Assembly: GCF_015709455.1 (NCBI RefSeq)
Contig: NZ_JADNQW010000008.1
Coordinates: 1-64,000 of the forward strand
Reading direction: 5' to 3'
Source: Methylosinus sp. H3A
Lineage (GTDB): Bacteria; Pseudomonadota; Alphaproteobacteria; Rhizobiales; Beijerinckiaceae
Length of the DNA stretch: 64,000 bases
How positions within the stretch are numbered: position 1 is the first letter of the stretch; the number at the start of each line of letters is the position of its first letter. Below, piece by piece: positions 14,002-44,756 of this stretch. The position numbers were made by a program, and so were the translations under genes. Under the pieces are notes generated by a model. That model ran no database searches. It was not told where the DNA came from and saw nothing but the letters and a program-made list of their open reading frames with translations.

Positions 14002-14059
14002 GATCAGTCCTTTGAAAATCGAGACGTCACACGAAACAAAACAGGCGCGAAAAGGCGCG

Positions 14060-15923: not shown

Positions 15924-15932
15924 TTGTCGTCC

Positions 15933-16217: not shown

Positions 16218-16219
16218 GC

Positions 16220-16483: not shown

Positions 16484-16493
16484 TTCTCTCTCC

Positions 16494-22983: not shown

Positions 22984-23062
22984 GAGATGTTCTCCTGAGA
23001 CGGCGCAAAAGCCGCCCGCATCGAGGAAGCCTGGAAAGGCGCAGCCGCTCGGCCGCACGATG

Positions 23063-25885: not shown

Positions 25886-26222
25886 ATGGATACGAAGAAG
25901 AAGACATCGAACAGATTTTCACCTGAGGTTCGAGAACGAGCGGTTCGGATGGTGCTGGAGCATCGAGGCGATCATGCGTCGCAATGGGCGGCGATCGCCT
26001 CGATCGCGGCGAAGATCGGCTGCACGAGCGAGACGTTGCGGAACTGGGTTCGCCAGGCGGAGCGCGATTTGGGCGCCCGTCCGGGTGCGACGACGGATGA
26101 GCGCGCGAGGATCAAGGCGCTGGAGCGGGAGAACCGCGAGTTGCGTTAGGCCAATGAGATCCTGCGCAAGGCGTCGGCTTATTTTGCGGCGGCGGAGCTC
26201 GACCGCCGCTCGAAACCATGAT
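25886..26222 (+). pseudogene. IS3-family transposase OrfA, nonsense mutation
   Basis: HTH-type OrfA ([17 protein letters not shown], then [14 protein letters not shown]). The frame is stopped by TAG at 26147-26149, where the family has a Gln codon (ELR-Q-ANEILRKAS), a C-to-T change; the rest, through AAELDRRSKP, follows in frame to TGA at 26220-26222. In this element the change looks like real decay rather than a sequencing slip. Confidence 0.8.
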
Positions 26223-26838
26223 CGCCTTCATCGACGCTCATCGGGAGGCGCATGAGGTCGAGCCGATCTGCGAGCTTTTGCCGATCGCCCGTCGACCTAT
26301 CGGGCGCATGCGACGCGTCGGCACGACCCCGCGAAAGCGTCAGCCCGGGCGCGTCGGGATGTGACCGTTCGCAAGGAGATACGGCGCGTCTTCGACGAGA
26401 ACTTCCAGGTTTACGGCGCACGCGAGGTGTGGCGGCAGATGAAGCGGGACGGAGAGAGCGTAGCGCGCTGCACGGTCGAACGGCTGATGCGGGGCATGGG
26501 CTTGCGCGGCGCCGTGCGCGGCAGGCCCGTGAAGACAACAGTGAGCGATCGCAAGACGCCCTGTCCGCTCGATAAGGTCGACCGGCAGTTCCAGGCGCCT
26601 CGGCCGAATACGCTGTGGCTGTCCGACGTCACCTATGTCGCCACTTGGCAGGGCTTCGTCTATGTCGCCTTCGTCATCGACGCCTTCGCTCGGCGGATCG
26701 TCGGTTGGCGCGCCTCGCGCACGGCGCATGCGGGCTTCGTGCATCATAGTGATCGCGGCGTTCAATACGTCTCTATAAAATACACAGCGCGCCTCGCCGA
26801 GGCCGGCGTCGAGCCCTCGGTCGGCAGCGGAGCCCGTG
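26219..26838 (+). pseudogene. IS3-family transposase OrfB, truncated
   Basis: DDE transposase remnant starting MIAFIDAHREAHEVEPICEL. A frame break lies near 26287 (one C short in GCCC before GTCG). The integrase core shows the first Asp (LWLSDVTYVATW), then FVIDAFARRIVGW, and an internal deletion of roughly 60 bases joins AHAGF to VHHSDRGVQYVS. The protein stops at EPSVGS, before the conserved Glu and the C-terminal quarter, so it is non-functional. Confidence 0.82.
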
Positions 26839-26855
26839 CGACCTGGGACGCGGCG

Positions 26856-28160
26856 TCAGATCGCCGTCGATGTTTCGGGGCCGGACCGCGGCCGCGCGGC
26901 CCGCGAGACGAGAGGCGCCTGCTTCCAGAAGCGCAATGCGCCGAGACCTTCCGGGACGATCAGCGACAAATAAGCGACGAGAGGCGAATCGATATAAAGT
27001 CCGAGCGCGACGAGAGGCAAGGCGACGAGCCAAAAGACCGAGCTATCCGTTCTCGCCACCGTCCCGAACGACCCTCGAGCCTGCAAGACGGCTCTGAGGA
27101 TCGACGTCATGTAGCGCAGCGGTATCGACGCGGCCAAAATTTCGACCAAGGTCGTCCACCAAGGACCATGCTGACCATATAATCGCCCGAGTGCGTCGGT
27201 TCCGGCCATGAGCAAGATCGCGACGCCCACGGCGAAGGGAGCGCCTTGCAGCGAGATCGTTCTGATCGAATCTATGAGGCGTTCGTCGGTGAGCCCTGCG
27301 AGGCGAAACGCGAGAAAGCGCATCAACGTGACGAGCGGCGTGAAAACAATCAACATCAACGTCTGACCGGCAGCGAAGCAATTCAGCCGCCCGACGTCAT
27401 AATTGCCGAGTCCGGGCGCCGCGAACATGGTGAGGCATGCGAGCATAGCGAGATGCATGGCGACGCCGCGCTCGGACTCCCAGAGCGCCGCATTGCCGAA
27501 GCGGCGCGCCCATGAAGCGCCGGGCAAGGTCAGCCAATCGACGCCATGCCGCAATAGAGCCCAAATTCCCCAGATCGACGAGCCGACGCAGATGACGGCC
27601 CCTATCTGGAAGCAGCTGGAAAACCCCAGCCCGAAAATCTCCATGGCCAAAAAATTGCCGATGGCCTTGGCGGCGAACTCCCACAGCTTCCATTTCACGA
27701 CTCCGGCGCCTTGGTCGAGCGCATGGAGCATGAAGGCCGAAGTGCTGCTGATGAAGCGGAACGGCGCGGCGAACGAATACCAGAGCACTCCGTCGCAGAT
27801 CAATCCGGCGATCGCATCATCGCCGACGAGCAGCTTCGCCAATCGGGGATAAGTCGCCGCTCCGAACGCCGCGCAACACAGGCCCGCGAGCAGCGAGAGC
27901 CATAGGATCGCTCCAATGACGCGCGGACTCGCCCCGTTTCGCCGCGCCTCGCCGATCGCGGTCGAAGCGACGGCGCCCATCGCGCTCAGCAAGATCACAT
28001 CGACGACGACCAAACGCGTCGTCATCGCATAGGCCCCCGGCGCGCCGCCGCCCAAATGGCCGACCATTATGACATCGGCTTGCTGTGCGAGCTGTCCCGC
28101 CACGATCACGAGGAGCAAAGGCCAATAGCCTCGCCAAAAGCCCTTGTCGTTCTCGATCAT
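26856..28160 (-). CDS. mbnM: MATE-family efflux transporter, methanobactin exporter MbnM
   Basis: A 434-residue multidrug-and-toxin-extrusion type transporter with 12 predicted helices. Family features seen are QQADVIMVGHLGG near the N-terminus, a second matching half after VTLMRFLAFRLAGLTDERL, and many hydrophobic segments. In known mbn operons MbnM exports the mature chelator. Here the start (MIENDKGFW) overlaps the mbnC stop as ATGA, so it is co-translated. The longer frame upstream lies inside mbnC and is not used. It is the last gene of the cluster: a truncated IS3 lies 18 bases beyond its stop, so any mbnP/mbnH once present downstream is not here. Confidence 0.9.
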   Translation of the reverse strand: MIENDKGFWRGYWPLLLVIVAGQLAQQADVIMVGHLGGGAPGAYAMTTRLVVVDVILLSAMGAVASTAIGEARRNGASPRVIGAILWLSLLAGLCCAAFGAATYPRLAKLLVGDDAIAGLICDGVLWYSFAAPFRFISSTSAFMLHALDQGAGVVKWKLWEFAAKAIGNFLAMEIFGLGFSSCFQIGAVICVGSSIWGIWALLRHGVDWLTLPGASWARRFGNAALWESERGVAMHLAMLACLTMFAAPGLGNYDVGRLNCFAAGQTLMLIVFTPLVTLMRFLAFRLAGLTDERLIDSIRTISLQGAPFAVGVAILLMAGTDALGRLYGQHGPWWTTLVEILAASIPLRYMTSILRAVLQARGSFGTVARTDSSVFWLVALPLVALGLYIDSPLVAYLSLIVPEGLGALRFWKQAPLVSRAARPRSGPETSTAI

Positions 28161-28747
28161 AGAGGTATGGGGCGCCACCCCGGGAAATGATCGAGCTCGT
28201 AGCCCGGCGTCCGAAAGCATCCGAAATTGCCTTCTGGCGCCGGAAGCTCGCATTCGAACTCGACCTGTTCGACTTCGATGAAGCGTGTCTCTATGCTGCT
28301 GAGCTTCCAGCCGGCGACAGCCTTCGTCGGCTCGATCAGGCGGCTCGCGATGACGATCCCGCAATAGTCGAGATCACGGTCGCGCCCCGACCACCGCGAT
28401 GCGGCCGCAGCCATGAGCTTCAGAGCGAGGTCTGCTCCGACGCGCTCACGAAACTCCGATTGCAGCAGCCATTCCGCCGCCCAGATATGATAGGCCCAAT
28501 CGAATGTGAGGTTCTTCTCCTGCGCCCATTGCATGAACGGCAGGAAAATCGCGCGCCCGTCGGGGCCCGAAAGCTCCAACAATTGCGGAACGGCGTCGAA
28601 CAGCACATGCCAATAGGCCCGATAGCTGATGTCGAGACGAACATGACTTCGTGACTCTCGCGCGAACGCGTCGAGCCGCGAAGGATTCATCATGTCTTGA
28701 TAGAGATCGGCGTCGATTCTAGCCGGCGCAGGCGACAAGAGACTCAT
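28157..28747 (-). CDS. mbnC: Methanobactin biosynthesis protein MbnC
   Basis: A 196-residue protein that in characterised systems forms a complex with MbnB and helps turn MbnA cysteines into oxazolone/thioamide groups. Recognisable features: MMNPSRLDAFARESRSHVRLDIS near the N-terminus, YHIWAAEWLLQSEF in the middle, and the C-terminal EFECELPAPEGNFGCFR. The start at 28747 lies 29 bases inside mbnB, and the stop overlaps mbnM as ATGA. A longer frame upstream is antisense to nothing useful and is the mbnB shadow. Identification rests on position between mbnB and mbnM plus overall resemblance to MbnC. Confidence 0.88.
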   Translation of the reverse strand: MSLLSPAPARIDADLYQDMMNPSRLDAFARESRSHVRLDISYRAYWHVLFDAVPQLLELSGPDGRAIFLPFMQWAQEKNLTFDWAYHIWAAEWLLQSEFRERVGADLALKLMAAAASRWSGRDRDLDYCGIVIASRLIEPTKAVAGWKLSSIETRFIEVEQVEFECELPAPEGNFGCFRTPGYELDHFPGWRPIPL

Positions 28748-29549
28748 TCGTCGTGTCCTCGGCGTGGGGGAATATCTCGCGCAGACGTTCGAGATCGATC
28801 GCGATCGAATCATATTCGATCTCGAAATCGCGCTCATATGTGATCGTCGAGCCCGGCTTGTCGAATGCCGCGCGCATGGAGCGAAGGAACTCCAACGTAT
28901 CCGGCGCCATTTCCCTGTCGTGCGAATCGACGATGACTCGCGGATCCAGAAACGAAGGCCCATATCCCGCGACATGAAAATGTCGCGTCGACGAGATGAC
29001 GTCGTTCCAAGCGTCCAGCGACGCGCCGCAATTGTGTCGGGCGACCACCGCATTGGAGGCGTCGAAGAGGACGCCCGCTCCGGTCTCTCGGCAGAGCTTT
29101 CGAAAAAACTCGGGCTGCTCCCATCCGCCGTCCATGATGGATGGGTAGTTTTCGAGATGGAGTTGGACGCCGAGCATATCCTGCCATTGCTCCACGCGAT
29201 TGCGCACGGGGTCATATTGGGCGTAATCGATTTCGCCGAGATAGAAGAGATTCCGTCCGTTCGGCGCAAAGCGCAGCAGATGGTCGGACACATAGACCGG
29301 CTGTAGCGCATCGATGAAAATGCGAATCTGCTTGGCAAGCTTCTCGAGCGTCTCTCTATCATTCTCGAGAAACTTCGACAGCATGATATGGAACCCGACC
29401 GGACACTCGAACGCATCCGCCAGCTCTTTGACCGGAACATTCAAGAAATTGTCGATGAGCAGCTCGCAATAGTCGATCTGCCGCTCTCTGAGCATGCGCC
29501 GAACCATGTCCAGCGTGCCGTTCAAGGTGAAGTTGAATCCGATTTGCAT
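28719..29549 (-). CDS. mbnB: Methanobactin biosynthesis iron enzyme MbnB (DUF692)
   Basis: A 276-residue DUF692 TIM-barrel enzyme. With MbnC it uses a non-haem iron centre and O2 to convert peptide cysteines to oxazolone/thioamide pairs. Counting from MQIGFNF, likely metal ligands are visible: His54 (GFHIMLSK), Asp89-His90 (SDHLLRF), Glu133 (LHLENYP), Asp163 (FDASNA), His192 (HFHVAGYG), Asp208-His210 (VDSHD) and Glu239. I chose ATG 29549 because conservation begins at MQIGFNFTL; an in-frame ATG at 29576 adds nine residues and cannot be excluded. It follows mbnA by 84 bases and overlaps mbnC. Confidence 0.95.
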   Translation of the reverse strand: MQIGFNFTLNGTLDMVRRMLRERQIDYCELLIDNFLNVPVKELADAFECPVGFHIMLSKFLENDRETLEKLAKQIRIFIDALQPVYVSDHLLRFAPNGRNLFYLGEIDYAQYDPVRNRVEQWQDMLGVQLHLENYPSIMDGGWEQPEFFRKLCRETGAGVLFDASNAVVARHNCGASLDAWNDVISSTRHFHVAGYGPSFLDPRVIVDSHDREMAPDTLEFLRSMRAAFDKPGSTITYERDFEIEYDSIAIDLERLREIFPHAEDTTNESLVACAG

Positions 29550-29633
29550 CTGGAAAGCTTTCGACGATGTCCGCATGGAAGCTGGAAAGCCGCCCCCGGC
29601 CGTATGAACCGGGGACGACGCTGCCGAATAAAA

Positions 29634-29729
29634 TCAGCAGGTGCCGCACCACGGCGGGTTGCACGCGCACATGGCCTGAACGCGGCCGATCACGGGGAGG
29701 ATTTCCTTCTTGACTACTTTGATGGTCAT
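29634..29729 (-). CDS. mbnA: Methanobactin precursor peptide MbnA
   Basis: A 31-residue precursor, too short for routine gene calling. The leader ends in the family motif LPVIGR followed by VQA (compare the known OB3b leader ending LPVIGRAAA). The core, if cut at the same place, is MCACNPPWCGTC, with Cys at core positions 2, 4, 9 and 12. In OB3b the core cysteines are at 2, 5, 8 and 10, with 2 and 8 becoming oxazolone/thioamide groups. Here I infer modification at Cys2 and Cys9 and a possible disulfide between Cys4 and Cys12. GGAG stands seven bases before the ATG. It lies directly upstream of mbnB. Confidence 0.95.
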   Translation of the reverse strand: MTIKVVKKEILPVIGRVQAMCACNPPWCGTC

Positions 29730-29842
29730 TGCTTGCTCCATTCGGCGTTTGATCTGTCGCCACGCCGTCGCAACCGGCGACGTGACGACTCGCTCTTCCG
29801 CAACGCCCCAGCGGAAGACGATTCCGTGTCGCGTATCGCTCT

Positions 29843-30988
29843 TTATGTCGAAAGACCCGAAGATTCGCGGCTCTCGGCGGACGACAGTGATGCGAGCGCT
29901 TCGAGGAGCGCATCGTTTTCCGACGGCGTCCCGACGGTGATGCGCAAATGTTTCCCGATCCGAGAGGTCGGAGGAAACGCTTTGACGAAGATGCGAAATC
30001 TCTCTCTCAATTCCTCCGCGACGCTCGCGCCGGCCCGCGGCGTCGCGCAAAAGAGGAAATTGCCTTCCGAACGAAAGGGGGAAAAGCCCGGCATCGCAGC
30101 CAGTTCCTCACGCAGGCGCTCGCGCTCGCGCTTCACTTGGTCGATGAGCGGCTGGAACAGAGCGGCTTCTTCGAGAAAGATTCGCGCGACGCATGCGGTC
30201 ATCGCATTCACGCGGTAAGGGAGCGAGGCGCGTTCCAATTCGCGAATGAGCGGCTCCGATGCGACGAGATATCCCAATCGGCACCCCGCGAGTCCGATCT
30301 TCGAAAATGATTGCGCGACGATTACATTGTGGCGATCGATCGCATCCGTCGCATAGGAGACGCCGGCATAGGCGGAATATGCCTCGTCCAGGCACAGCAG
30401 GTCGCTCGTGGACGCCGCGAGCCGCTCGAATGCGGCGCGATCCAGGGCACGGCCGGTCGGATTATTGGGATTGCCGACATAAAATATCTTTGCGCCCTCC
30501 ACCACCGTCATTTTGTCGGCGACCTCCGTCGACAAGGCAAATGCGTCGTCGAGCGGAATGGTGACGAAGCCTTTGTCGTTGAGAGCGGCGAAATGCCCGT
30601 AGAGCGGGAATGTCGGCGTCGGAACGACCACCGCGTCGAACGGCCCCCCGAAAGCACGACAAACGAGATCGAGCATTTCCGTCGAGCCGACGCCGAGAAG
30701 AATATTTTCGGCGCGCACGCCGATATTCGCTGCGATCTCGGCCTCGAGCGCATCGATCTCCGTCGCATCCGGATAGTGTCGAAAGTCGATCGCCGAAATC
30801 TCTCGCGCGACACGCGTCAGGAATTCGTCCGGGAGAGGAAAACGCATCTCATTGGCGTCGAGACAAAGGCCGTCGCTCCGCGGAATCGAGCCGTATATCG
30901 GCGTCGCTCCCAAGCGTCTCTTGGCTTGCGGCCTGGCCGTCGCAGAGTGTGGCGCTGGTTGCTCAAGAACATCGATCAGGTCCGACAA
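29843..30988 (-). CDS. mbnN: PLP-dependent aminotransferase, MbnN-like
   Basis: A 381-residue class I/II aminotransferase of the HisC type. Seen are the ring-stacking region GSTEMLDL, YVGNPNNPTGRAL, LDEAYSAYAG (Asp for the pyridine N) and the PLP lysine in SFSKIGLAGCRLGY. In OB3b, MbnN transaminates the N-terminal residue exposed after leader removal; here this would act on Met1 of the core. The start is TTG at 30988, with AGGAG upstream; the first in-frame ATG is too far inside. It lies 113 bases upstream of mbnA, whereas in OB3b it lies downstream of mbnM. A histidinol-phosphate aminotransferase is the main alternative by sequence, context favours MbnN. Confidence 0.85.
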   Translation of the reverse strand: MSDLIDVLEQPAPHSATARPQAKRRLGATPIYGSIPRSDGLCLDANEMRFPLPDEFLTRVAREISAIDFRHYPDATEIDALEAEIAANIGVRAENILLGVGSTEMLDLVCRAFGGPFDAVVVPTPTFPLYGHFAALNDKGFVTIPLDDAFALSTEVADKMTVVEGAKIFYVGNPNNPTGRALDRAAFERLAASTSDLLCLDEAYSAYAGVSYATDAIDRHNVIVAQSFSKIGLAGCRLGYLVASEPLIRELERASLPYRVNAMTACVARIFLEEAALFQPLIDQVKRERERLREELAAMPGFSPFRSEGNFLFCATPRAGASVAEELRERFRIFVKAFPPTSRIGKHLRITVGTPSENDALLEALASLSSAESRESSGLST

Positions 30989-31347
30989 GGCGCGTCTCCT
31001 GTTCTACCGATGGTGAAAGCTATCGTGGCCATGCCTGCGCTCGCTCTGTGTGCTTCATCAAAACATGTGACGATGGCGTCTCGCGCGTCGGCGAGTCATT
31101 CACGAAACATGTCGGATCATTCACTCGTGATGAGAGACGCGCAGATGCGATCGAATCCGACATGGGTGGAAAAAAATTTTCTCGTGATGCCGAAAAATTC
31201 GTTCGATCGATCTATGTCACGATGATCGACTAGAAGGAGACATACGTCGGCGCTGGAACTTATGCGCGAACCGTGAACGAATGCCCGCTCGAGCCGAAGA
31301 TGTGGAAGCAAACGACCTCGCAGCGGCGACGCCGTTCGTCATGTTTC
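30989..31347 (-). promoter_or_regulatory. Region upstream of mbnN with a 10-base inverted repeat
   Basis: Noncoding, 359 bases between the DUF4189-like gene and mbnN; probably holds the promoter of mbnNABCM. It contains CATGTCGGAT at 31110-31119 and its exact reverse complement ATCCGACATG at 31155-31164, with 35 bases between. ATTCACTCGTGATGAG lies in the spacer, and a related GTCATTCACGAAAC stands just upstream. Such symmetry may be an operator or a hairpin. No clear sigma-70 promoter is visible. Confidence 0.4.
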
Positions 31348-32037
31348 TTATCGGGCGGCCGTGTCGGGGAGGCTCAGCTCCAGCGCTTTCGACAATCGCG
31401 TGCGATGCGCCTCAATCTTATCGCTTTCGGAGCGAGGAATTTGTGGAAATGCGAGCGCCTGCGCGCAAGCATTAGTCGCGGCGGCGATCGATGTCGGCGA
31501 ATTCGGCTTTTTGAAGCATTTGCGCCAGCTCTCGATATATCTCGCCATGCTCGGATCGAAGGGCGTCGCCGATCCGGCGCGATGCGCATCCGCGTCGACG
31601 CCCTCATCATTTTCGCAGACTGTTTCGATGATCTTGCAGGGATCTTTCGCGCGGCATTCGGTGTCGGCTTTGTCTCGGGCGTGAGCGAGACTGTCGCCGA
31701 TCGCCGCTGCGTAGCGAGATCCGTCGAGACTCGCCGCGACGGCGGCGCAGCCGTCGTGAAACGACTGCACGACCGTGCAGGCGCTTCTCTCGCCGCCGCA
31801 GACATAGACGGCGAATCGCGCGGCCCCGCGCGGGTCTGAAAAGCCGCGAGCGGAGCCCGTCAGCCATTCCCCATTGTCGCGTCGTCCGAGCGCGAGAGCC
31901 GACTCCGCCCGAGAGTCGGAAGAGGCTCCCGATATGAGCAAAATCCACGTCGATAGGATGTATGCGGCGCTGCGTCCGAGGCGCACTCTCTTCGGCCTGT
32001 GGGCATGAGCATGAAATAGTGAGATTGGTTCGGTCAT
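31348..32037 (-). CDS. Secreted DUF4189-like protein in the mbn locus
   Basis: A 229-residue protein with a hydrophobic export signal (AAYILSTWILLISGASSDSRA) and a mature part rich in Cys. The centre resembles DUF4189 (AVYVCGGERSACTVVQSFHDGCAAVAASLDGSRYAAA), a domain of unknown role in secreted or periplasmic proteins. Further Cys residues follow (ECRAKDPCKIIETVCEND, WRKCFK). It lies between the extra ECF sigma factor and mbnN on the same strand, so it may belong to the regulon. I do not know a function; a role in metal binding or envelope response is only a guess. Confidence 0.7.
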   Translation of the reverse strand: MTEPISLFHAHAHRPKRVRLGRSAAYILSTWILLISGASSDSRAESALALGRRDNGEWLTGSARGFSDPRGAARFAVYVCGGERSACTVVQSFHDGCAAVAASLDGSRYAAAIGDSLAHARDKADTECRAKDPCKIIETVCENDEGVDADAHRAGSATPFDPSMARYIESWRKCFKKPNSPTSIAAATNACAQALAFPQIPRSESDKIEAHRTRLSKALELSLPDTAAR

Positions 32038-32106
32038 GAACGAGCTCGATTGCTGATGAGTCGACGCACGCTCGACGAGTCGACGAATGCGCGCGCCTGT
32101 CGGAAG

Positions 32107-32616
32107 TCATGCGGGATTCGACGATTGAAACGCCATGCTGTGGCGTAAATCGCCACGGGCTTTGGTCAAGTGCCTTTCCACCGTTCGTGTCGATACGCCG
32201 CAACGGTCGGCGATTTCGGCGTTGGTGGCGCCGTCGACCACTTTCAAGAGGATGATCTGCTTGCGCAATGGCGACAGCTGTTCGAATGTCGAGGAATAGT
32301 GGTGGAGCTCGGCAACGTTCGGCGTGTCGGAATGAATGGGAAGGACGACGGATTCGTCGAAGGGCGTCGCGGCGTCGGTAAAGGCGGAGCGGAGCTTTCG
32401 CCGCCTGTGCATGTCGGTGACGAGATTGGCGGTGATGCGATATAGATAGGCGCGCGGGCAGGTTAGCTTTTCGGCTCCCTCCTTCACCAGTCGCAGATAG
32501 GCCTCCTGAACGACGTCTTCTGATTCTTCCCAACCGAGCCGACGGCTGGCGAATTGACGTAATCTGGGCGCATAGTCCCGGTAGAGCTGTTGGACCGACT
32601 TCTCCTTCGCTGTCAT
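32107..32616 (-). CDS. ECF-family RNA polymerase sigma factor without a paired anti-sigma
   Basis: A 169-residue ECF sigma factor. Region 2 shows LYRDYAPRLRQFASRRL and EDVVQEAYLRLV; region 4 shows FEQLSPLRKQIILLKVVDGATNAEIADRCGVS and RTVERHLTKA with its HTH. It is of the FecI type used with TonB receptors. The start at 32616 has GGAG; an upstream in-frame ATG at 32628 lacks one. No FecR gene follows it, so it either uses MbnR of the neighbouring system or is controlled another way. It lies 929 bases downstream of mbnT. Confidence 0.88.
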   Translation of the reverse strand: MTAKEKSVQQLYRDYAPRLRQFASRRLGWEESEDVVQEAYLRLVKEGAEKLTCPRAYLYRITANLVTDMHRRRKLRSAFTDAATPFDESVVLPIHSDTPNVAELHHYSSTFEQLSPLRKQIILLKVVDGATNAEIADRCGVSTRTVERHLTKARGDLRHSMAFQSSNPA

Positions 32617-32668
32617 GCGCATCTCCATAGCTTCGCTCGGAAGTGGTGAAACAGGCGTTCTGTGGGCT

Positions 32669-33001
32669 CTAGCGTCTATGGCGCGATCGATCGCCTCCTT
32701 CGCCGCCGAGCTTCTTCACGGATCTGGCCAACGGCCGAATATGAGAATGGCTTCGGTTCAAAGCGATCTGATTCATCGGCACGACGAAGACGGCGGAGGC
32801 GTTCGACGCATCCGCGAGCGCGATCCGGCACATGAGTCCGAACTGTTCGCCAGCGTCGAAGACTTCGATCACCGTGAGGCGGGGCGAGCGTCGGACATCG
32901 ATCGAACGACTACGCAAGAAGGACAATAGCGCGGGTCGGCCTTGCGCCGCGAAAGGCAATTCGCGTCGCAGGCGAGCGATGAGCTCTCTTTCTCTTTGCA
33001 T
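32669..33001 (-). CDS. Hypothetical protein
   Basis: A 110-residue soluble protein not recognised. It begins MQRERELIARLRRELP and has a compact central part (LLSFLRSRSIDVRRSPRLTV, IEVFDAGEQFGLMCRIALAD) with balanced composition and alternating hydrophobic pattern, unlike the Arg-rich frameshadow products around it, and so is probably real. A weak GAGGCG site precedes the start. It is on the same strand as the downstream sigma factor, 52 bases upstream of it, and may be co-transcribed. No motif suggests a function. Confidence 0.5.
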   Translation of the reverse strand: MQRERELIARLRRELPFAAQGRPALLSFLRSRSIDVRRSPRLTVIEVFDAGEQFGLMCRIALADASNASAVFVVPMNQIALNRSHSHIRPLARSVKKLGGEGGDRSRHRR

Positions 33002-33544
33002 GCCAATTCGCCTCGAATGAGATTGCGAGAAGCTAAAAAGGCGGGAGCGACGTCACGACAGATCGATCGCTCTTCGCAGAATGGAAGACGCGTTGAAATT
33101 GCGGCCGAGTCCGGTCGTCGGCTCAGGCGCGAGCTGCTTCGGCTTTCCCGAGTCGCCTGGTCAGTTGTCCGTGGGCGGCGTCCGTCGCCGCGCTCGGTTC
33201 GAGGCGGCTTCGCTCGAAGCGCGCTGGATGTGCGGCCGCGTCATGCGGTGTCGAGGCGACGAGCGCGCCACGCCACAGCGGTCGCACTCGCGCCTATGAC
33301 GCGCGTTTGATGTGATGTCGGCGCGGCGAATGTGGCCGTTCGAACGCCGAGACAGTTTGTATGTGACAGAGCGCTTCGCGCCGTCATTTCTTTCGAAAAT
33401 CGCAATGGCCGCATTTTTTCCTCTGACGATCGGTTTCAGTCGCCTCGCTTTCATCGATGCAACAGTGGGCGTCGTCGCGTGAGACGAGCGCCCGCTAGAT
33501 GAGGCCTTCCGCTCGAGGCGGGAGGCGTCCGCTTTTTCAGCTGT
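33002..33544. other. Intergenic region without a clear gene
   Basis: About 540 bases between the hypothetical gene and mbnT. A 97-residue minus-strand frame at 33161-33454 starts plausibly (MKARRLKPIVRGKNAAIAIF) but becomes Arg-rich and is probably chance. No promoter or repeat could be supported. Confidence 0.4.
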
Positions 33545-36097
33545 TCAGAACTCCCATCGGAGCGAGCCGAGGAAGCTGCGCGGCGTTCCCGTTTGAATCG
33601 TCGTCCTGCTGCTCGCCGTAGGATAATAGATGGTGTCGGTTATGTTCTTGACGTTGAGCTGCGCGGTCACCTTGTAGCCCGCGATCTCGGTCGCATAGGC
33701 GACCATGCCATTGAGCAGCGCATAGCTCGGCAGGATCAATGTGTTGGCGTTATCGCCGAAGAAATCGTCGACGACGGTGACGCCGGCTCCGAGGCTCAGA
33801 CCGCGCAATTCGCCATCGGCTGCATATTTGACCCAGAGGTTGCCGTAGTTGCGCGGGCTGCCGGGCAGCTTATTGCCGGCAACCGCGAGCTGCGTCGTCA
33901 TCAGCGTGGCGGGATTATAGGTGAGCGCGCCTTGTATCGTGCGCACATCGTCATGCGTGTAATTGGCGATCACGCTCCAATTGTCGTCGATGCGGCCCAT
34001 GAGATCGAATTCGACGCCGCGGCTGCGCGCTTTTCCGATGACCAGCGAATTGCTCGCATTGGTGGGGTCCGGCGTCAGAATATTCGTCTTTGTGATGTCG
34101 AAATAGGCGAGCGTCGCCGTCAGCCGACCGTCGAGGAGTTCCGCTTTGACTCCGCCTTCGAACTGCTCGCCTTTTTGCGGCGGAAGCGCCACTCCGAGGC
34201 TGGTCGTATTGTTCAAGCCGAAGGAACGCGTGAAATTGCCGTAGAGCGAGAGCCATGGCGTCGGCTGATAGACGAGGCCGACTCTGGGGCTGAACGCCTT
34301 ATTATAGACCGTGGTGTAGGAAGCGAGAGCGCCGGCGAGCGAGGTGACGGTCTTATTGCTGCCCGTTTCCGCCCAATCATAGCGCCCGCCCAGCAGCACA
34401 TGAACCGAGTCGTCGAAGAAGGAGACCATGTCCTGCGCATAGACGCCGGTCCAGCGTTGATCCTGCGTGATGTATTGTGGGGCGGCGAAGGGATTGTCGA
34501 GCGTCCAATAATTGGGAGCATAGATGTTTATCGAGCTCGTCGCTGCGAATATATTCGTGTACATCGGCATATGAGTGCTGAGATAATCATAGCCGACGAG
34601 GGTCGAATGCGATAGCGGGCCCGTCTCGAACTTGCCTTTGAGGTCCAAATTGGTCGCGAAGTCGAATTCGTGGAATCCGCCGCCGAGCGTGGAGTTCGTC
34701 AATGTGCGCGTGAGAACGCCGGTCGCTTGATTGATGGTCACGCCGAGCGCGTTGATCTGGCTGTCGTCGAATGTCGAATAGCTCATCCGATTGGTGAGGC
34801 TCCAACCGGGGAAGAAATCATAGGTCCAGTCATAGGCGACGCGCTTCTTGTCGTATTCGTGCGGAGAGGTCGTCGTCAGAAGCGGAGTCTGAAGATAGCG
34901 CGAGATCGGTATCGGCGCAGGATAGGAGCCGATCGCCGGCAGCACGGGATAGTCGTCGACCCAAGTGCGATGCTGATATTCGAAATCTATGTTCATCCGG
35001 AATTGCTCGGTCGGACGAAAGCTCAGCGTCGGCGCCAGAAAAATATTCTGGTCCTTCACGAAATCCCGATAGGAATAGGTGTGGTAGAATTCGCCGTTGA
35101 TCCGATATCCGAATACATTGTCCGGCGTCAGCGGACCGGTGGCGTCGACCGTCGTTCGGGTAAGTCCATAAGAGCCGTTCTGCTGCTGAACGGAATAATA
35201 AGGCGTCTCCAACGGGCGCTTCACCACGAGATCGATGAGGCCGCCGGGCTCCACGCGGCCATAGAGAATCGCCGCCGGACCTTTCAGCACCTCGACCGAT
35301 TGCAGATTAGCGGTGTCGAGATAGCGCATTCGGTATTCCATCAGGCCGTTCTTATAAGAGTTGCCATTGCTGGAAAATCCACGAATCTTATAAGATTCGG
35401 AAAAGCCTGGAGTCGTTTGCACGGAGCTGACATTGGTGACGATCGCGTCCTTGACGCTGATCGCTTGCTGATCGTCCATCAGCTGCCGCGTCACCACTTG
35501 AACGGCCACCGGCGTTTTGAGCAGCGGCGTGTCCATCTTCATGGCGCTGGACGCGTTTTCGGCCTTATACCCGGTCATGCGATCGCCGGGGCCCTGGGGA
35601 GCGCCGCCAGCGCGACGACCCGCGCGATCGGCGTTCGATTCGTGTCCGATGTCGATCGTCGGCAGCGGCGTCGCGCCCTCCGGGTTCGCGTCATTGCGCA
35701 CTTCGGTCGCCTGGGCGAGAACGATCACCACGGATTTTCCGTTGGGCGACAGCTCATATTTCAAGCCGGTTCCGGACAGAACTTCCGAAAGCGCTTCGGC
35801 GAGGCTGTGCTGGCCGGTCAGTCCTCTGGTCCGATGGGAACGGGTGAGGCGCGAATCATAGACGATGCGGACGCCGCTCGCATCGGCGACGCTGTTCAGC
35901 GCGGTCGATATGGGGCCGGCCGGAATGTCGTAGCTGCGGACGATCTCGGAGATTTCCCTCTGCGACATCTGCGCATGCGCTTCGGCGCGATCCGCGTTCG
36001 AGCCGAACGCTATGGCGCTCATCACGGACGCGATGGCCGTGGCGCTCATCATCCCACCCTTCGCCGACTTGCTTCCATTGAGAATCCGATCCGACAT
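33545..36097 (-). CDS. mbnT: TonB-dependent receptor with STN signalling domain, MbnT
   Basis: An 850-residue outer-membrane receptor. After a signal peptide comes an STN (secretin/TonB short N-terminal) domain, about residues 45-120 (REISEIVRSYDIPAGPI, VRIVYDSRLTR, LSGTGLKYELS), then a TonB-box-like LPTIDIG, the plug (LKTPVAVQVVTRQL, YKIRGFSSNG, VEVLKGPAILYGRVEPGG) and a barrel ending in GSLRWEF. The STN domain is the part that contacts a FecR-type anti-sigma, which fits mbnR and mbnI upstream. In methanotrophs MbnT reimports copper-methanobactin. The start at 36097 is chosen for the GGACGG site and signal peptide; the open frame extends 16 codons more. Confidence 0.88.
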   Translation of the reverse strand: MSDRILNGSKSAKGGMMSATAIASVMSAIAFGSNADRAEAHAQMSQREISEIVRSYDIPAGPISTALNSVADASGVRIVYDSRLTRSHRTRGLTGQHSLAEALSEVLSGTGLKYELSPNGKSVVIVLAQATEVRNDANPEGATPLPTIDIGHESNADRAGRRAGGAPQGPGDRMTGYKAENASSAMKMDTPLLKTPVAVQVVTRQLMDDQQAISVKDAIVTNVSSVQTTPGFSESYKIRGFSSNGNSYKNGLMEYRMRYLDTANLQSVEVLKGPAAILYGRVEPGGLIDLVVKRPLETPYYSVQQQNGSYGLTRTTVDATGPLTPDNVFGYRINGEFYHTYSYRDFVKDQNIFLAPTLSFRPTEQFRMNIDFEYQHRTWVDDYPVLPAIGSYPAPIPISRYLQTPLLTTTSPHEYDKKRVAYDWTYDFFPGWSLTNRMSYSTFDDSQINALGVTINQATGVLTRTLTNSTLGGGFHEFDFATNLDLKGKFETGPLSHSTLVGYDYLSTHMPMYTNIFAATSSINIYAPNYWTLDNPFAAPQYITQDQRWTGVYAQDMVSFFDDSVHVLLGGRYDWAETGSNKTVTSLAGALASYTTVYNKAFSPRVGLVYQPTPWLSLYGNFTRSFGLNNTTSLGVALPPQKGEQFEGGVKAELLDGRLTATLAYFDITKTNILTPDPTNASNSLVIGKARSRGVEFDLMGRIDDNWSVIANYTHDDVRTIQGALTYNPATLMTTQLAVAGNKLPGSPRNYGNLWVKYAADGELRGLSLGAGVTVVDDFFGDNANTLILPSYALLNGMVAYATEIAGYKVTAQLNVKNITDTIYYPTASSRTTIQTGTPRSFLGSLRWEF

Positions 36098-36371
36098 CGA
36101 TTTGGTTCCGTCCCGTCTCCTAGCGGCAGGCACAGCGCCTCCCACTCTGACAAGGACGAAGCTCTCCTCCTCCGGGGAGGTCGACGAGTTAAAAAATTCT
36201 CCTTTCCCTATGCCGCGAGCGCGAGGCCGCCGCCTTCGCCCCGACGGCGGGCCCGCTATACAACAAGACGAACGGCGGCCGCGATAGGGGACGCGGCCGC
36301 GCGGAAAAAGGGGTTGTGTCGCAAATTTTGTCTGCGGAGGTGACGCAGAGACGTGTATAGAGTGACGCGGC

Positions 36372-36583: not shown

Positions 36584-37531
36584 TTATCCCGTGAGCACGA
36601 CAATATAGCCGAGATCGAGAGCCCGGAGGCCGAGGGCCTTCTCGATCGCGGAAATCGCGGCCATCGGCTCTGCCGCATCGAACACGCCGCTCACACGCCT
36701 CTCGCGGATCGACGGATCGAGAATCAAAATGTATCCGCGCAAATAATGTCCGAGGACGGAGACAACCTCCGTGAGCGGCCTGTCGTCGAAAATCAGCTTT
36801 CCGCGCCGCCATGCGGTCACATGGTCGACCTGCACCCGATATGGAGCAACCGCGGCGGCGCCCGGCCCAAAAGCGCTCTGTTCGCCTTCATCGACAATGA
36901 TCGCCGGGCCGCCCGCCATGACGCGCACGCGATGCTGCGCGACTGTGACCTCGGTTCGTTCCCCTGTGGTCGAAATGTCGAAACTGGTGCCGAGAGCCGT
37001 CACCGAGCCGCGGGCGATCAGAACGGAGAAGGGCCTGTCGGCGTCCGGCGCGACGTCGAACCAAGCCTCCCCCCTCAGGAGCGTCACGTTTCTCTTGCCT
37101 TCGTCGAAATCCAGCGAGATGGCCGAGCGAGGGCCGAGTTCGATCCGAGAGCCATCCGCGAGCCGAACCATCCGCGTCTCCGCGACGCCGGTGCGGGCCT
37201 GCGCCCATAGCATGATCCAGGCGTCGTCGAAGAAGACATAGGACAACAGGGCGAAAGCGAGCCCCGCGAGGCCGGCGGCGACGCGAGCGTGCGGCATCCG
37301 GCGCGGCGGGGGCACCTCGAACTCGTCGATGAGTGGCCGCAGGCCTTCGAGATCGCCCCAGATACGGCAAACCTTTTCGAATGCTTCGCGGTTCGACGGG
37401 TCACGTGTCAGCCAAAGGACGAACGCCTCGCGCTCCTGCGGCGTCGGGGCTCGGCAGTCGAGGCGCGTCCACCATTCGATGGCCGCTCTCCGACGGCTCG
37501 CCCGATCAAAGGGAGCGTCATCCTCCTCCAT
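36584..37531 (-). CDS. mbnR: FecR-family anti-sigma factor, MbnR
   Basis: About 315 residues. The cytoplasmic N-terminal part has the FecR/PupR pattern (AIEWWTRLDCRAPTPQEREAF, then WLTRDPSNREAFEKV), followed by one membrane helix (VAAGLAGLAFALLSYVFF), a FecR domain (RMVRLADGSRIELGPRSAI, LLRGEAWFDVA, TALGTSFDI) and a C-terminal STN-interacting region (DDRPLTEVVSVLGHYLRG). It should hold the MbnI sigma factor and release it when MbnT signals substrate binding. ATG 37531 is given; a TTG four codons upstream (37543) has the better AGAGG site and may be the true start. It lies 107 bases after the sigma gene. Confidence 0.88.
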   Translation of the reverse strand: MEEDDAPFDRASRRRAAIEWWTRLDCRAPTPQEREAFVLWLTRDPSNREAFEKVCRIWGDLEGLRPLIDEFEVPPPRRMPHARVAAGLAGLAFALLSYVFFDDAWIMLWAQARTGVAETRMVRLADGSRIELGPRSAISLDFDEGKRNVTLLRGEAWFDVAPDADRPFSVLIARGSVTALGTSFDISTTGERTEVTVAQHRVRVMAGGPAIIVDEGEQSAFGPGAAAVAPYRVQVDHVTAWRRGKLIFDDRPLTEVVSVLGHYLRGYILILDPSIRERRVSGVFDAAEPMAAISAIEKALGLRALDLGYIVVLTG

Positions 37532-37638
37532 ACGTCGCGCCAATCTACCTCTTATCGGGCGTCACCGCCGCCACTGATCCCTTACTGTAAGAGGACGTAT
37601 GTCGGCAGTGGTAAAGGAGCTCGTCTCGAGGAAAAATT

Positions 37639-38138
37639 TTAGTCGAGCGCCGCATGGCACCGCTCTAGCGCCAATCGTAGATGTTTGAGGACCATGTTTC
37701 GGGAAATGCCCAACCTATGAGCGATCTCGTCCGGCGAGAGATCATGGAAGCGGCGTAAGATGAACACCTCCCGGCACTTGGGGGTAGGCTCGTCAACGAG
37801 GCGTAGAACAAGCGGACGCTTTCCTTCGCCTCACAAATCTGCGACGGATCAAGCCCAGCCTCGGCGATCTCGGTCGGAATATCGCCTGGCGCGACGTGCT
37901 TGGCTATGCTCTTGCGGTGACGGGAGAAGTCGCGTGCGAGATTGATCGCCGTCGTTCGCAGATAGGCGTCCTCGTCGACGATCGGCCCGATCTCCCGACG
38001 CCGCAGGAGTCGCACAAAGGTCTCTTGTAGAAGATCGAAAGCATCTTCATGGCCCACGCGCCGCGTCAGACAGCCGAGAAGATCGCGCTTGTTGCGCTCG
38101 AAGAGTTTGCCGATCAAACGGCCTTTGGTCTTGGACAT
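37639..38138 (-). CDS. mbnI: ECF sigma factor MbnI, one apparent frameshift
   Basis: FecI-type ECF sigma factor, about 166 residues. Region 2 is visible in the first frame (DLLGCLTRRVGHEDAFDLLQ, AYLRTTAINLARDFSRHRKS). After FYASLTSLPP the frame breaks at the CCCCC run near 37780-37786; one additional C gives KCREVFILRRFHDLSPDEIA and HRLGISRNMVLKHLRLALER, a normal region 4 with its HTH, ending at TAA 37639-37641. The break is therefore likely a consensus error. It is the first gene of the mbnI-mbnR-mbnT signalling set and should drive the methanobactin genes in response to the copper complex. Confidence 0.85.
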
Positions 38139-40976: not shown

Positions 40977-42311
40977 TCACCCCGTCCTCTTGCGCTCTCG
41001 CGCCGCCTTCCCAGCCTTGCCGCGCAACAGGGCCATCAGCACGGGCCCGAGCGAGAACTCCCCTGCCCTCGCCTTTTCGGTCAGAACGCGAAGATAACCG
41101 CCGGCGCTTTTGATTTCCTCGCCGCGTTGCAGGATCGCGGCGATGACAATCGAGGCGTCATGCTCGCCCAAGACGTCCAAGGCTTGCGACCAGGCGTCCG
41201 GCGAAACGCCGAGCGCCGAGCGCACTGTCGCCGCCGCCGCAGCCAAGTCTCGCCACGACGAAACCTCGCCGCTCGGGCCGTAATCGACGATGTCCGGACA
41301 CGCCTCCAACACCATACCCAGCGGATAGGCTCGAAGCGCGGGCTTGGGATGGGTAACCCGAGAGCGATCCGAAGATGCTTCCGGCTCTCGCTCGATCGGC
41401 CACCTGGCCTGTTCGAGATTTGGCTCGGACGGATCGGCCCTGCCTTTTTGAAGGCTAGATTCAAGATCAGAAGAGTTTGTGGTTTGATTCTGTATGTGGC
41501 GCTCAGTTTGAGACTCATTGCCGCTCATATTTCGAGCTTTTATGTGCGTTTCCAGCAGCTTGTGGATTTCAGCCGCAAGCGCGGCAAGTTCGTCGGCCAA
41601 AGCCTCCAAATCGACGCGGGAAAGCCCACGTCCATAGCTCCCCGAAAGCGTCGCATAGCGCTGATGCGCGCCCTCCCAGTCGCCCGAAACGCCCTCCTCC
41701 AATCCGGTCTCGATCATTTTGACGATGTCTCGCCGGGTGATGGTGATCTTTTCTCGCAGCAGCGTGATCGCGCGGTTCTCGGCCCGCACCTCCTCGGCGA
41801 GGTTCTCGATTTCGCTCGAACGCGCCACGAGCGGCGCGAGGTCGAAGCCGAAAGCATCCTCTATGGCTCCGCCCTGCCCTTTTCTGGCGAAGCGTTTGCC
41901 GTTCGGAGAATCGCGGCGGATGATCAGTCCGGCGTCGACCAGGCAGGCGAGATGCCGCCGCAACGTCGCCGGCGCCATGCCATGAGCGCGGATCGAGAGT
42001 TCCTTGTTCGAGGGAAACACGACGATGCCGGCGCCGGCTCCGGCCCCCGGCTCGCACCGCGCGTCATTCCCTGGCAATGAGAGCGCTGTCTCCTGGTGGA
42101 AGCTCAGCAACGCGTGCAATACGGATAGCGCACGCTCGGTGACGCCGAGCGGCTCCTTGGCTTCGGTGAGCGCGCGAAATAGCCGCCATTTATGCACGAC
42201 GGTTTCGGATGCTCCCGGCTTGGCGGCGAAATTTTCGGTCGCGGTCTGGCTCGCCACCATGGCGAGCGATAGCGACCGCCGCCCGAAGGGCGTCGTTGGA
42301 CGTGTCTGCAT
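40977..42311 (-). CDS. repC: RepC plasmid replication initiator
   Basis: A 444-residue RepC, the initiator of alphaproteobacterial repABC replicons. It starts with the family opening MQTRPTTPFGRRSLSLAMVA and contains the winged-helix DNA-binding part (LSIRAHGMAPATLRRHLACL, VDAGLIIRRDSPNGKRFARK) and the C-terminal SWRDLAAAAATVRSALGVSP. In this family the origin usually lies inside the gene. AAAGGA precedes the ATG. Expression should be held down by the antisense RNA in the repB-repC gap. Confidence 0.95.
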   Translation of the reverse strand: MQTRPTTPFGRRSLSLAMVASQTATENFAAKPGASETVVHKWRLFRALTEAKEPLGVTERALSVLHALLSFHQETALSLPGNDARCEPGAGAGAGIVVFPSNKELSIRAHGMAPATLRRHLACLVDAGLIIRRDSPNGKRFARKGQGGAIEDAFGFDLAPLVARSSEIENLAEEVRAENRAITLLREKITITRRDIVKMIETGLEEGVSGDWEGAHQRYATLSGSYGRGLSRVDLEALADELAALAAEIHKLLETHIKARNMSGNESQTERHIQNQTTNSSDLESSLQKGRADPSEPNLEQARWPIEREPEASSDRSRVTHPKPALRAYPLGMVLEACPDIVDYGPSGEVSSWRDLAAAAATVRSALGVSPDAWSQALDVLGEHDASIVIAAILQRGEEIKSAGGYLRVLTEKARAGEFSLGPVLMALLRGKAGKAARERKRTG

Positions 42312-42366
42312 GTTCCTTTGCCTCGTTCAGGCAAAAGAAATCCGCTCACCAAAACGGCGCCGACTC

Positions 42367-42395
42367 TTGACAGCGATTCGCGGAAGTGGGATTCT
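42367..42395 (+). promoter_or_regulatory. Promoter of the repABC antisense RNA
   Basis: TTGACA at 42367-42372 and GATTCT at 42390-42395 with a 17-base spacer, on the strand opposite repABC and inside the repB-repC gap. The -35 is perfect and the -10 is fair. Predicted start about 42402. Confidence 0.65.
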
Positions 42396-42401
42396 CGGAG
42401 T

Positions 42402-42452
42402 GCTTAAATCAGAGAAGGGCTTCCGGGCGGCGACGTTCGGGGGCTTTTTTCT
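42402..42452 (+). ncRNA. Counter-transcribed RNA (incA/ctRNA) of the repABC replicon
   Basis: About 50 bases, from the promoter at 42367-42395 to a strong terminator hairpin. It is antisense to the repC leader. In known repABC plasmids such an RNA of about 55-60 bases lowers repC expression and sets copy number and incompatibility. Position, size, promoter and terminator all fit; the exact ends are inferred. Confidence 0.7.
42419..42450 (+). terminator. Intrinsic terminator of the ctRNA
   Basis: Stem of 11 pairs (with four G-U pairs) between GCTTCCGGGCG at 42419-42429 and CGTTCGGGGGC at 42434-42444, loop GCGA, followed by TTTTTTCTTTT. On the opposite strand the same bases would fold in the repC leader. 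Confidence 0.75.
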
Positions 42453-42461
42453 TTTGCGGGT

Positions 42462-43457
42462 TCAATCTCCTGATTCACTTATGATCTTCGTCTCCTTGAA
42501 CGCTCGATAGAGTGCGTCGAGATTAGACGAGATGTATCGGCCGAACTCACTCGCTTCTTTCGACTTGAGCGAGAGGTTGAAGCTGCTTCCGTTATTCCGG
42601 TAGCTTGCAGACACGGTCTTGCTCTCTGATTCCCAGCACGCCGGGTCGATCCTCCCCCGCGCGGACTTCCGTGGCTTGCGTCCGAGCGTCTGGAGCTGGG
42701 CGAGCAAAAAATTGAACCGCTCCATTACGTCTTTGGAACGGAATTCGTCGGACGCCACGACGATAATCGCAGCCTCCCCGGCCTTCGGCGACTTCACCTG
42801 CTTCTTGAGTTCTTCCCACCGGTCACGGCCAATGGTCTTGGCCGCGCCGATTGCTTCGATCACGGGCGCAGGAACCGTCTCCACCACAGAAAGCATCCTC
42901 GACAGCAAGCTGTCGTCGATCGTCAGCGCGGATTTGATAATTTCCTTCCGCTGCCCCATATCGAGGAGCTTCTTGGCGAACAGCGCCTTTTCGATGAAAG
43001 ACAAATTTGCTCGTGCAGTGTTCTCCTGACCTTGCGCGATAATATGCGCGATATCCTCTAGGTTCTTGATCACCGCGCGAACAGGAATACCCAGTTCTTT
43101 GGCGACGCGCGCGCGACGGTGGCCAAACACTATCATGAATCGACCCTTGCTCTGCGGATGAGGCCGCACAAGAATCGGCGTCGATTGCCCGTGCTCCCTG
43201 ATCGCCTCGCGCAGATCGGCGAAATCAGCATCGTCGTCTTCGATGCGATCCGCGACAAAAGAGCGATCTAGAACTGAGACATCGAGTTCGACGACTGTTT
43301 CCCCGGCCAGCATTTTCTTTGCGTTCTCGGCCATCTCATCGATCGAAAGCATCATCGAGCGAGACGCTCCGCGAAGCGCATAATCATGCCGCGCGGCAAC
43401 ATCGGCCTTCGGCGTCTCCGCCCCCGTGATAGTCGCCAAGAGGTTCTTACGGGCCAT
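42462..43457 (-). CDS. repB: RepB, ParB-like partition protein
   Basis: A 331-residue ParB-family centromere-binding protein. N-terminal family opening (MARKNLLATITG), ParB/sulfiredoxin-like region with HGQSTPILVRPHPQ and VFGHRRARVAKELG, and a central HTH region (LSFIEKALFAKKLLDMGQR, LTIDDSLLSRMLSVVE). It partners with RepA to segregate the replicon. AGGAG precedes the ATG. It follows repA by 78 bases, and the gap contains one copy of a parS-like repeat. Confidence 0.95.
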   Translation of the reverse strand: MARKNLLATITGAETPKADVAARHDYALRGASRSMMLSIDEMAENAKKMLAGETVVELDVSVLDRSFVADRIEDDDADFADLREAIREHGQSTPILVRPHPQSKGRFMIVFGHRRARVAKELGIPVRAVIKNLEDIAHIIAQGQENTARANLSFIEKALFAKKLLDMGQRKEIIKSALTIDDSLLSRMLSVVETVPAPVIEAIGAAKTIGRDRWEELKKQVKSPKAGEAAIIVVASDEFRSKDVMERFNFLLAQLQTLGRKPRKSARGRIDPACWESESKTVSASYRNNGSSFNLSLKSKEASEFGRYISSNLDALYRAFKETKIISESGD

Positions 43458-43510
43458 ATCAGGCTCCTCTCCCTTGCGCTAATCTCTTGAGGAATTTAGC
43501 GGTTCGGCAA

Positions 43511-43530
43511 TTCTGCACGGCTGTCAAAAG
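43511..43530 (-). repeat. parS-like repeat, copy 1 (repA-repB gap)
   Basis: The plus strand reads TTCTGCACGGCTGTCAAAAG. The 16-base core TGCACGGCTGTCAAAA occurs exactly again upstream of repA at 44936-44951. It is an imperfect palindrome around CGGCTG and agrees in part with the repABC parS consensus (C-N-GC-N-G centre with TT and AA outside). Likely a RepB or RepA binding site. Confidence 0.5.
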
Positions 43531-43535
43531 GAAGA

Positions 43536-44747
43536 TCATCTCCGCCCCCACGCTTGATGGATGAGCGCCGTGATCTCCTCATTGACTGCATTCAACGCCT
43601 CCAATGCGCGGTCATATGTTGCGCGCGTGAATTGGGCGCGCTCGACCTCGTACAACGTCTGATTGGTGATCCCCGCGTCCGAAATAGCGGTCGATTTCAC
43701 CATCGGGCTTTTGAGCATCTGCTTTGGAAACAGCGATTGCATGAAACCAACCATTTGCGCCTGCGGGCCATCGGTCGGCTCGTAGCGTGTGACAAGATAC
43801 CGAAACCATTTTAGGCGGACATCGGCTCCGGCTCCGCTGATCGACTGAAGGACGCCGCCCAGCATCAGCAAAAATTGGCTCATCGACATGACGTCCAGCA
43901 TCTGAGGATGGATGGTAATGAGAACGGCGGTGGAAGCTGCCAATGCGGTCAAGGTGAGATAGCCGAGCTGCGGGGGGCAATCGATCACCACGACGTCATA
44001 ATCGTGATCGACCTCCTTCAGTGCGTCGGTGATCCGGGTGAAGAACATCCGGCCCTCGGCCGAGGATTTGTCGGAAGCGGCGAGAGGCGTTTCATATTCG
44101 TATTCCTGCAGTTCCAAATTCGCAGGAACGATGTCGAGCCCGGGGAAATTGGTGCGCCGAACGACCTCGGAAATCGGCTTCTTCAAGCCATCGTAACGTA
44201 GGGCCTCATAGAGTGACGGATTCCGATCGAGCTCGGGCTGAATACCGTGAAGCGCGGAAAGGGAGGCCTGTGGATCGAGGTCAATTGCGAGCACGCGATG
44301 GCCGGTGAGAGCGAGGTGCTGGGCCAGATGAGCCGCCGTCGTGGTCTTTCCGCTGCCGCCTTTGAAATTGACGACGGCGATGACCTGGAGCTCTTCCCCC
44401 CCACGTCGATGCGGCACATATTTTTTGTAATCGGCTCGCCCGTGACGATCGAGATACTGCCGCAACTCTAACATTTGCTCAGCCGTGTAGCTCCTACGTC
44501 CGGACGCCGAGGTGGCGGGAGTAGGACCCTTACCTTCGAGATGGAGCTTCTTAATGTTAGATGACGTCACGCCCAGAAAATATGCGGCCTCCGCCAAGGA
44601 AAAGGAGCGAAGGCTCTTAACGGCGTCGGGCGGATAATGCTCTAGCCGGAGCATGTTCAGCTTATCCGAGATCAATTCTCCCTGTTGAAGAATAGTCTCG
44701 TAGAAGCTGAAACCGCCCGTCTCGTCGATAGCTGTCGTCACATTCAT
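43536..44747 (-). CDS. repA: RepA, ParA-type partition ATPase
   Basis: About 403 residues. N-terminal HTH-like domain (FSLAEAAYFLGVTSSNIKKL) for autoregulation, then the ParA ATPase with deviant Walker A VNFKGGSGKTTTAAHLAQHL, DLDPQASLSALHG and Walker B VVVIDCPPQLG. First gene of repABC; with RepB it segregates the replicon and represses the operon. I give ATG 44747; a TTG three codons upstream (44756) is equally open, and neither has a strong ribosome site. Confidence 0.95.
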   Translation of the reverse strand: MNVTTAIDETGGFSFYETILQQGELISDKLNMLRLEHYPPDAVKSLRSFSLAEAAYFLGVTSSNIKKLHLEGKGPTPATSASGRRSYTAEQMLELRQYLDRHGRADYKKYVPHRRGGEELQVIAVVNFKGGSGKTTTAAHLAQHLALTGHRVLAIDLDPQASLSALHGIQPELDRNPSLYEALRYDGLKKPISEVVRRTNFPGLDIVPANLELQEYEYETPLAASDKSSAEGRMFFTRITDALKEVDHDYDVVVIDCPPQLGYLTLTALAASTAVLITIHPQMLDVMSMSQFLLMLGGVLQSISGAGADVRLKWFRYLVTRYEPTDGPQAQMVGFMQSLFPKQMLKSPMVKSTAISDAGITNQTLYEVERAQFTRATYDRALEALNAVNEEITALIHQAWGRR

Positions 44748-44756
44748 CGGCGTCAA

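Follow-up and report, generated by a model that had tools for sequence, protein, structure and literature searches.

Organization of the locus

The window, i.e., the whole stretch of 64,000 nucleotides that was analysed, carries a cluster of methanobactin genes on the minus strand, among them mbnA, the gene of the precursor peptide (29634..29729). The 31-aa MbnA, MTIKVVKKEILPVIGRVQAMCACNPPWCGTC, is encoded by the reverse complement of 29634-29729 from ATG to TGA and is composed of the leader MTIKVVKKEILPVIGRVQA and the core MCACNPPWCGTC, their boundary being set by analogy with OB3b, whereas the plus strand over the same positions gives an unrelated translation. GGAG is located 6 nt ahead of the chosen ATG and supports this start over an alternative in-frame ATG four codons further 5'. 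The peptide is above the cut-off of both precursor models, Pfam PF25751 Methanobactin (40.7 bits, cut-off 27, E 2.1e-10) and NCBIfam TIGR04071 (27.9 bits, cut-off 24), and has the general traits of a methanobactin precursor, that is, a short length, a leader rich in Lys/Arg, and an X-Cys core. A search of solved structures with MbnA gave a single chance match (E 1.5). MbnA is a real peptide; the family models together with the synteny exclude chance.

Downstream of mbnA follow mbnB, encoding a multinuclear iron oxidase (MNIO/DUF692; 28719..29549, minus; TIGR04159, 430 bits, cut-off 325), mbnC, encoding the MbnB partner (28157..28747, minus, with the start picked at 28747; TIGR04160, 224 bits, cut-off 185), and mbnM, encoding a MATE exporter (26856..28160, minus; NF045578, 473 bits, cut-off 285). 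With the mbnB start at 29549 the mbnA-mbnB gap is 84 bp; a longer mbnB ORF starts at 29576. The sequence-only reading had placed at 29634..29729 a methanobactin precursor with an LPVIGR leader, directly upstream of mbnB and mbnC, and its position, identity, leader, core, and gene order are all borne out, the gene being one of the minus strand. MbnB matches the solved MbnB structure 7tcr with a phmmer E of 7.3e-127, and residues H54, H90, E133, D163, N166, H192, D208, E239, and D241 are invariant across 24 aligned MbnB sequences; judged by sequence, these columns are the putative counterparts of the Fe ligands and the catalytic Asp named in the available text of Dou et al. 2022 (PMC8888699).

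Upstream of mbnA lies mbnN, encoding a HisC-related aminotransferase with a PF00155 domain (29843..30988, minus). It is followed by the gene of a DUF4189 protein (31348..32037, minus; PF13827) and that of a second ECF sigma factor (32107..32628, minus; Sigma70 r2 and r4), for which the OB3b-type locus L079 contains 31% and 39% matches, respectively, the DUF4189 match being located there downstream of an mbnH-like gene. Such a sigma-DUF4189 pair thus occurs near the operon both here (31348-32628, minus) and in the OB3b type (L079, 6923-8504), in different positions. Further on are mbnT, encoding a TonB-dependent receptor with an STN signalling domain (33545..36145, minus; PF00593, PF07715, PF07660; 98% identity in the genus genome G008), mbnR, encoding a FecR-like anti-sigma factor (36584..37543, minus; PF04773), and mbnI, encoding an ECF sigma factor (37665..38138, minus), in which only Sigma70_r2 was found. 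A promoter scan of 28000-31300 gave no sites against 0.8 expected, terminator-like sites in the same interval numbered three against 3.3 expected, and the repeats near the operon are short and chance-like. Genes of the PF02461 (AMO/pMMO) family are present in the genome.

In the published definition, Group I methanobactins have a core of 11–15 aa with four non-adjacent Cys and a proline (PMC3621798, available text). The core MCACNPPWCGTC has 12 aa, with Cys at 2, 4, 9, and 12, as the sequence-only reading had counted them, and two Pro. The regulatory and uptake genes of the group are represented by the STN domain of MbnT, the FecR domain of MbnR, and sigma region 2 of MbnI, the mbnI ORF lacking region 4. 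With high confidence, the operon can be assigned to Group I of the methanobactin operons and to a methanotroph of the genus Methylosinus, this confidence applying jointly to the assignment and to the mechanism discussed below. A core outside the known class was rejected on a survey of 64 mbnB loci.

Plasmid context

The 82,484-base contig with the operon also carries the replication and partition genes repABC (40977..44756, minus; RP-C, RepB, and ParA-type domains) with a ctRNA and an S-element, and the operon is therefore located on a plasmid or a plasmid-like contig. A repC is likewise found in G008, at a distance of about 6 kb from mbnT.

Several other gene groups of the same contig are worth mentioning. 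A catecholate-type siderophore gene set occupies 874-14148 (minus), so that iron and copper scavengers are adjacent; it comprises an SDR, an isochorismatase-carrier protein, an AMP ligase, a chorismate-binding enzyme, an MFS exporter, and an NRPS with condensation, adenylation, and carrier domains, two of each. The SDR and a thioesterase of this set gave partial profile matches, and some of the ORFs may be incomplete. Two further TonB-dependent receptors, each with a PepSY-TM gene in its vicinity, are encoded at 14262-23058 (minus); that at 20770-23058 shares about 49% identity with MbnT, and a signalling domain was not found in it. Genes for ATP synthase subunits of the gamma, alpha, a, and beta types are located at 51413-58007 (minus).

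Comparison with known methanobactin operons

The present operon shares with that of OB3b (Group I, core LCGSCYPCSCM) the LPVIGR leader, four Cys and a Pro in the core, MbnIRT, MbnB, MbnC, MbnM, and MbnN; its MbnB and MbnN are 65% and 51% identical, respectively, to those of the OB3b-type genome G003. The gene orders differ, T-A-B-C-M-N-P-H-sigma-DUF4189 in the OB3b type (P and H named from the published OB3b order) and T-sigma-DUF4189-N-A-B-C-M here. An mbnH-like gene was not found on the present contig, and a location of such a gene near the operon was rejected, both matches of the own genome being on contig C5.

The cores differ as well. The Cys of OB3b are at 2, 5, 8, and 10, and those of MCACNPPWCGTC at 2, 4, 9, and 12, so that CxC precedes CxxC here and CxxC precedes CxC in OB3b; this is the swapped spacing described in the sequence-only reading. 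Immediately ahead of the second ring Cys, OB3b has Pro and the present core Trp. The longer inner loop of that reading was also found, the two Cys that are likely modified being separated by six residues against five in OB3b, but the M. parvus type has eight, which makes the present loop intermediate. The suggestion that these differences from OB3b set the core apart is less well supported, as cores with Cys4 or Cys5 have been published and the loop of the M. parvus type is longer.

The plasmid operon of the M. parvus OBBP type (core FCSSCSGGGQCGCGPA), whose contig also contains repC, has a nearly identical leader, MAIKIVKKEILPVIGRVQA, and an MbnB of 71% identity. Its core is longer, with Cys at 2, 5, 11, and 13, and it lacks mbnN (PMC8788703, available text), which is present here. 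According to the same source, the M. parvus methanobactin contains two oxazolones, which absorb maximally at 340 and 390 nm; as that strain has two operons, the long core FCSSCSGGGQCGCGPA is a putative source of this product. The methanobactin of Methylosinus sporium NR3K, in the available text of PMC5947558, has two rings and a disulfide to the C-terminal Cys12, as is proposed here, but with Cys5 in place of Cys4, and its first ring is a pyrazinediol in the 2018 crystal structure.

The aminotransferase encoded at 29843..30988 is 51% identical to the product of the gene after mbnM in G003 and about 30% identical to the chromosomal HisC-like paralogues, and is therefore called MbnN; an ordinary HisC is ruled out by the same identities. 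At E 1e-15 all ten genus genomes gave a match, only three of them above the HisC level, with identities of 100% (G000, the own genome), 92% (G008), and 51% (G003), the rest being at or below 33%. Among the 21 mbnB-bearing genomes of a neighbouring genus, judged from its members to be Methylocystis, no MbnN was found at E 1e-30 in a run without a positive control, which by itself carries little weight; the M. parvus type, for which the lack of mbnN is also published, is one of the 21. The Lys of the FSKI motif, presumably the PLP lysine, is invariant in a six-row MbnN alignment. By analogy with OB3b, MbnN is predicted to transaminate the N-terminus of the methanobactin.

Distribution of the core

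The identical MbnA peptide occurs in two of the ten genus genomes, the own one and G008; a tally of seven of ten also counts looser matches. The protein database contains the peptide as one cluster of two sequences on five contigs, in a search that reaches close relatives only. TIGR04159 was detected in 28 of 397 genomes of the family, giving 30 loci. Together with 34 named loci, from a scan in which the records of the own or very near genomes may be left out, they make up the 64 mbnB loci surveyed, the two sets partly overlapping and not independent (one genome, for instance, contributes both L041 and L169). At 55 of the 64 loci an MbnA could be read ahead of mbnB. In L053, L054, L070-L073, L154, and L157 none was read, although for L053 one was found under another search pattern, and L163 gave only a spurious ORF. 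In Methylosinus sp. Sm6 (G009; L169, L041) the mbnB frame holds one TAG stop.

The survey lists 21 distinct cores, among which Cys4 occurs solely in MCACNPPWCGTC. In the MbnB tree the present enzyme falls in a clade of eight of the 25 rows (support 100/99), with the Group I enzymes of the OB3b, C49, Sm6, and M. parvus types, and five core types are found within this single clade: besides MCACNPPWCGTC, LCGSCYPCSCM (Cys 2, 5, 8, 10), MCGSCNTCKTGC and MCSSCPMCGPLCP (both Cys 2, 5, 8, 12), and FCSSCSGGGQCGCGPA (Cys 2, 5, 11, 13). Trp before the presumed second ring Cys is present in MCACNPPWCGTC alone among the cores of its clade; by analogy with OB3b, the corresponding residue in Group I is otherwise P, M, T, or Q.

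Status of the core in the literature

The class and the gene set have been described, so that the kind is already known, and the core itself probably is. Most Methylosinus cores have a Cys at four or five and a Cys at the penultimate or last position, according to the available text of Basle et al. 2018 (PMC5947558); these authors therefore knew of a core with Cys4, and MCACNPPWCGTC is the only such core found here. In the corresponding text of Kenney and Rosenzweig 2013 (PMC3621798), OB3b and LW4, the latter also a Group I strain, are the only methanotrophs whose operons contain a PF00155 MbnN. On the grounds of the Cys4 statement and of this restriction of MbnN, the core may well be that of LW4, the methanobactin of which was characterised by Kenney et al. 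2016, as mentioned in passages of PMC12538549. One point speaks against the identity with LW4: in the 2013 survey MbnN follows MbnM, whereas here mbnN precedes mbnA. We consider it likely that MCACNPPWCGTC has already been tabulated in print, and somewhat favour its being the characterised LW4 product.

That the core has been described nowhere, and would give a methanobactin of new sequence, is unlikely, although the mbnN position unlike that of the 2013 description and the single cluster of close relatives in the protein database would agree with it. The sequence-only reading had proposed searching MbnA collections for the core; it was found in two of the 55 MbnA-bearing loci surveyed, but in no paper with CNPPW. 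Neither CNPPW nor KKEILPVIGR had a match in the open paper library, which comes without figures, supplements, or the LW4 sequence, and a known strain is suggested both by what has been published on Cys4 and by where mbnN occurs.

State of the operon

The mbnI ORF loses its frame in the last third, whereas the G008 copy is intact. Either a sequencing error or a true loss that alters regulation may underlie this break, and regulation may differ here because mbnI is out of frame. At the other end of the operon an IS3-like fragment abuts the mbnM 3' end: transposase ORFs with an ALIL pseudoknot, a marker of IS3-type frameshifting, are located at 25886-26829 (plus), the second of them overlapping mbnM on the opposite strand and containing a partial integrase domain.

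The broken mbnI and the IS3-like fragment could be taken as signs of a decaying or silent plasmid copy, with intact peptide genes but normal induction blocked. This is quite improbable. Open frames are kept in mbnA, mbnB, mbnC, mbnM, mbnN, mbnT, and mbnR. The block 26830-36311, which spans about 9.5 kb of the operon, shares 94.9% DNA identity with G008, and the similarity continues to 42463, beside repC, with gaps and at 89-94.9% identity. In the seven genes for which dN/dS against G008 could be computed (mbnR and mbnI being excluded) the values range from 0.03 to 0.37: 0.03 for mbnC, 0.07 for mbnB, 0.14-0.16 for mbnT, mbnM, and the second sigma gene, 0.26 for the DUF4189 gene, and 0.37 for mbnN. 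With a dS of 0.15 in mbnB the precursor peptide is unchanged, mbnA showing one synonymous and no non-synonymous difference, which over 31 codons proves little alone and offers too few sites for a selection test of its own. The mbnI break itself is perhaps a sequencing error, and in the available text of PMC9601215 it is MbnI2 that is required for mbnT2 induction, the target of MbnI1 being left open.

Proposed pathway and product

A Group I operon with rings at Cys2 and Cys9, a Cys4-Cys12 disulfide, and transamination by MbnN is very probably the right explanation as a whole. Copper regulation, the modified Cys, the disulfide, transamination, export, and uptake are all modelled on the OB3b pathway. 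MbnA would be made under copper limitation; MbnBC would bind the leader and oxidise Met1-Cys2 and Trp8-Cys9, by four electrons each, to a heterocycle with a thioamide, and the two N,S pairs from the modified X-Cys pairs would hold Cu(I). The leader would then be removed, Cys4 and Cys12 would form a disulfide, MbnN would replace the amine of the N-terminal Met by a carbonyl, and the product would be exported by MbnM, its copper form being taken back by MbnT. With two four-electron oxidations, the disulfide, and transamination the predicted apo mass is 1273.31 Da, against 1274.34 if transamination is left out and 1284.42 for the peptide before any modification. Calculated in the same way, OB3b comes to 1154.26, in agreement with the mass of that compound.

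The choice of Cys2 and Cys9 follows the OB3b model, in which rings arise from X-Cys pairs and the Cys of the first pair bears a ring (available text of Dershwitz et al. 2022, PMC8788703), while the proposed disulfide fits the Cys5-Cys12 disulfide of NR3K (PMC5947558, available text). At least one C(G|A|S)(S|T) motif is found in each core, as stated in passages of Kenney and Rosenzweig 2013 (PMC3621798), and here Cys9, in C-G-T context, provides it; Cys2, in CAC, is without the motif, as is the second ring Cys of OB3b. This departure at Cys2 would suit a modification by MbnBC of other Cys (Cys4 and Cys9, or Cys2 and Cys4), or of more than two, giving a different chelate, as would the fact that only the first Cys of OB3b MbnA was detected as MbnBC-modified in vitro in the available text of Dou et al. 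2022 (PMC8888699), but such an outcome is very unlikely, as every Group I-type core read starts with X-Cys after an OB3b-like leader cut and Cys4 with the last Cys agrees with a published pattern in which Cys 4/5 is paired with a Cys at the penultimate or final position (PMC5947558, available text).

There is a small chance that the product is of an undescribed kind, with a second oxazolone formed on Trp-Cys and closed by a six-residue loop with two Pro, or else with another Cys pair chosen by MbnBC, and that the colour, redox potential, or release of its Cu(I) site is measurably unlike that of the OB3b type; an effect of the Trp on colour and redox behaviour had been suggested in the sequence-only reading.

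As a discovery the locus adds little, since the class, the gene set, and probably the core have already been described. The carriage of the operon on repABC plasmid contigs may help explain its patchy spread. The operon is also an instance of leader-core modularity, in which a nearly constant leader and related MbnBC enzymes go together with very different cores (CNPPW, CYP, CPM, CNT, and CSGGGQ loops), and this core diversity is useful for testing the choice of Cys by MbnBC.
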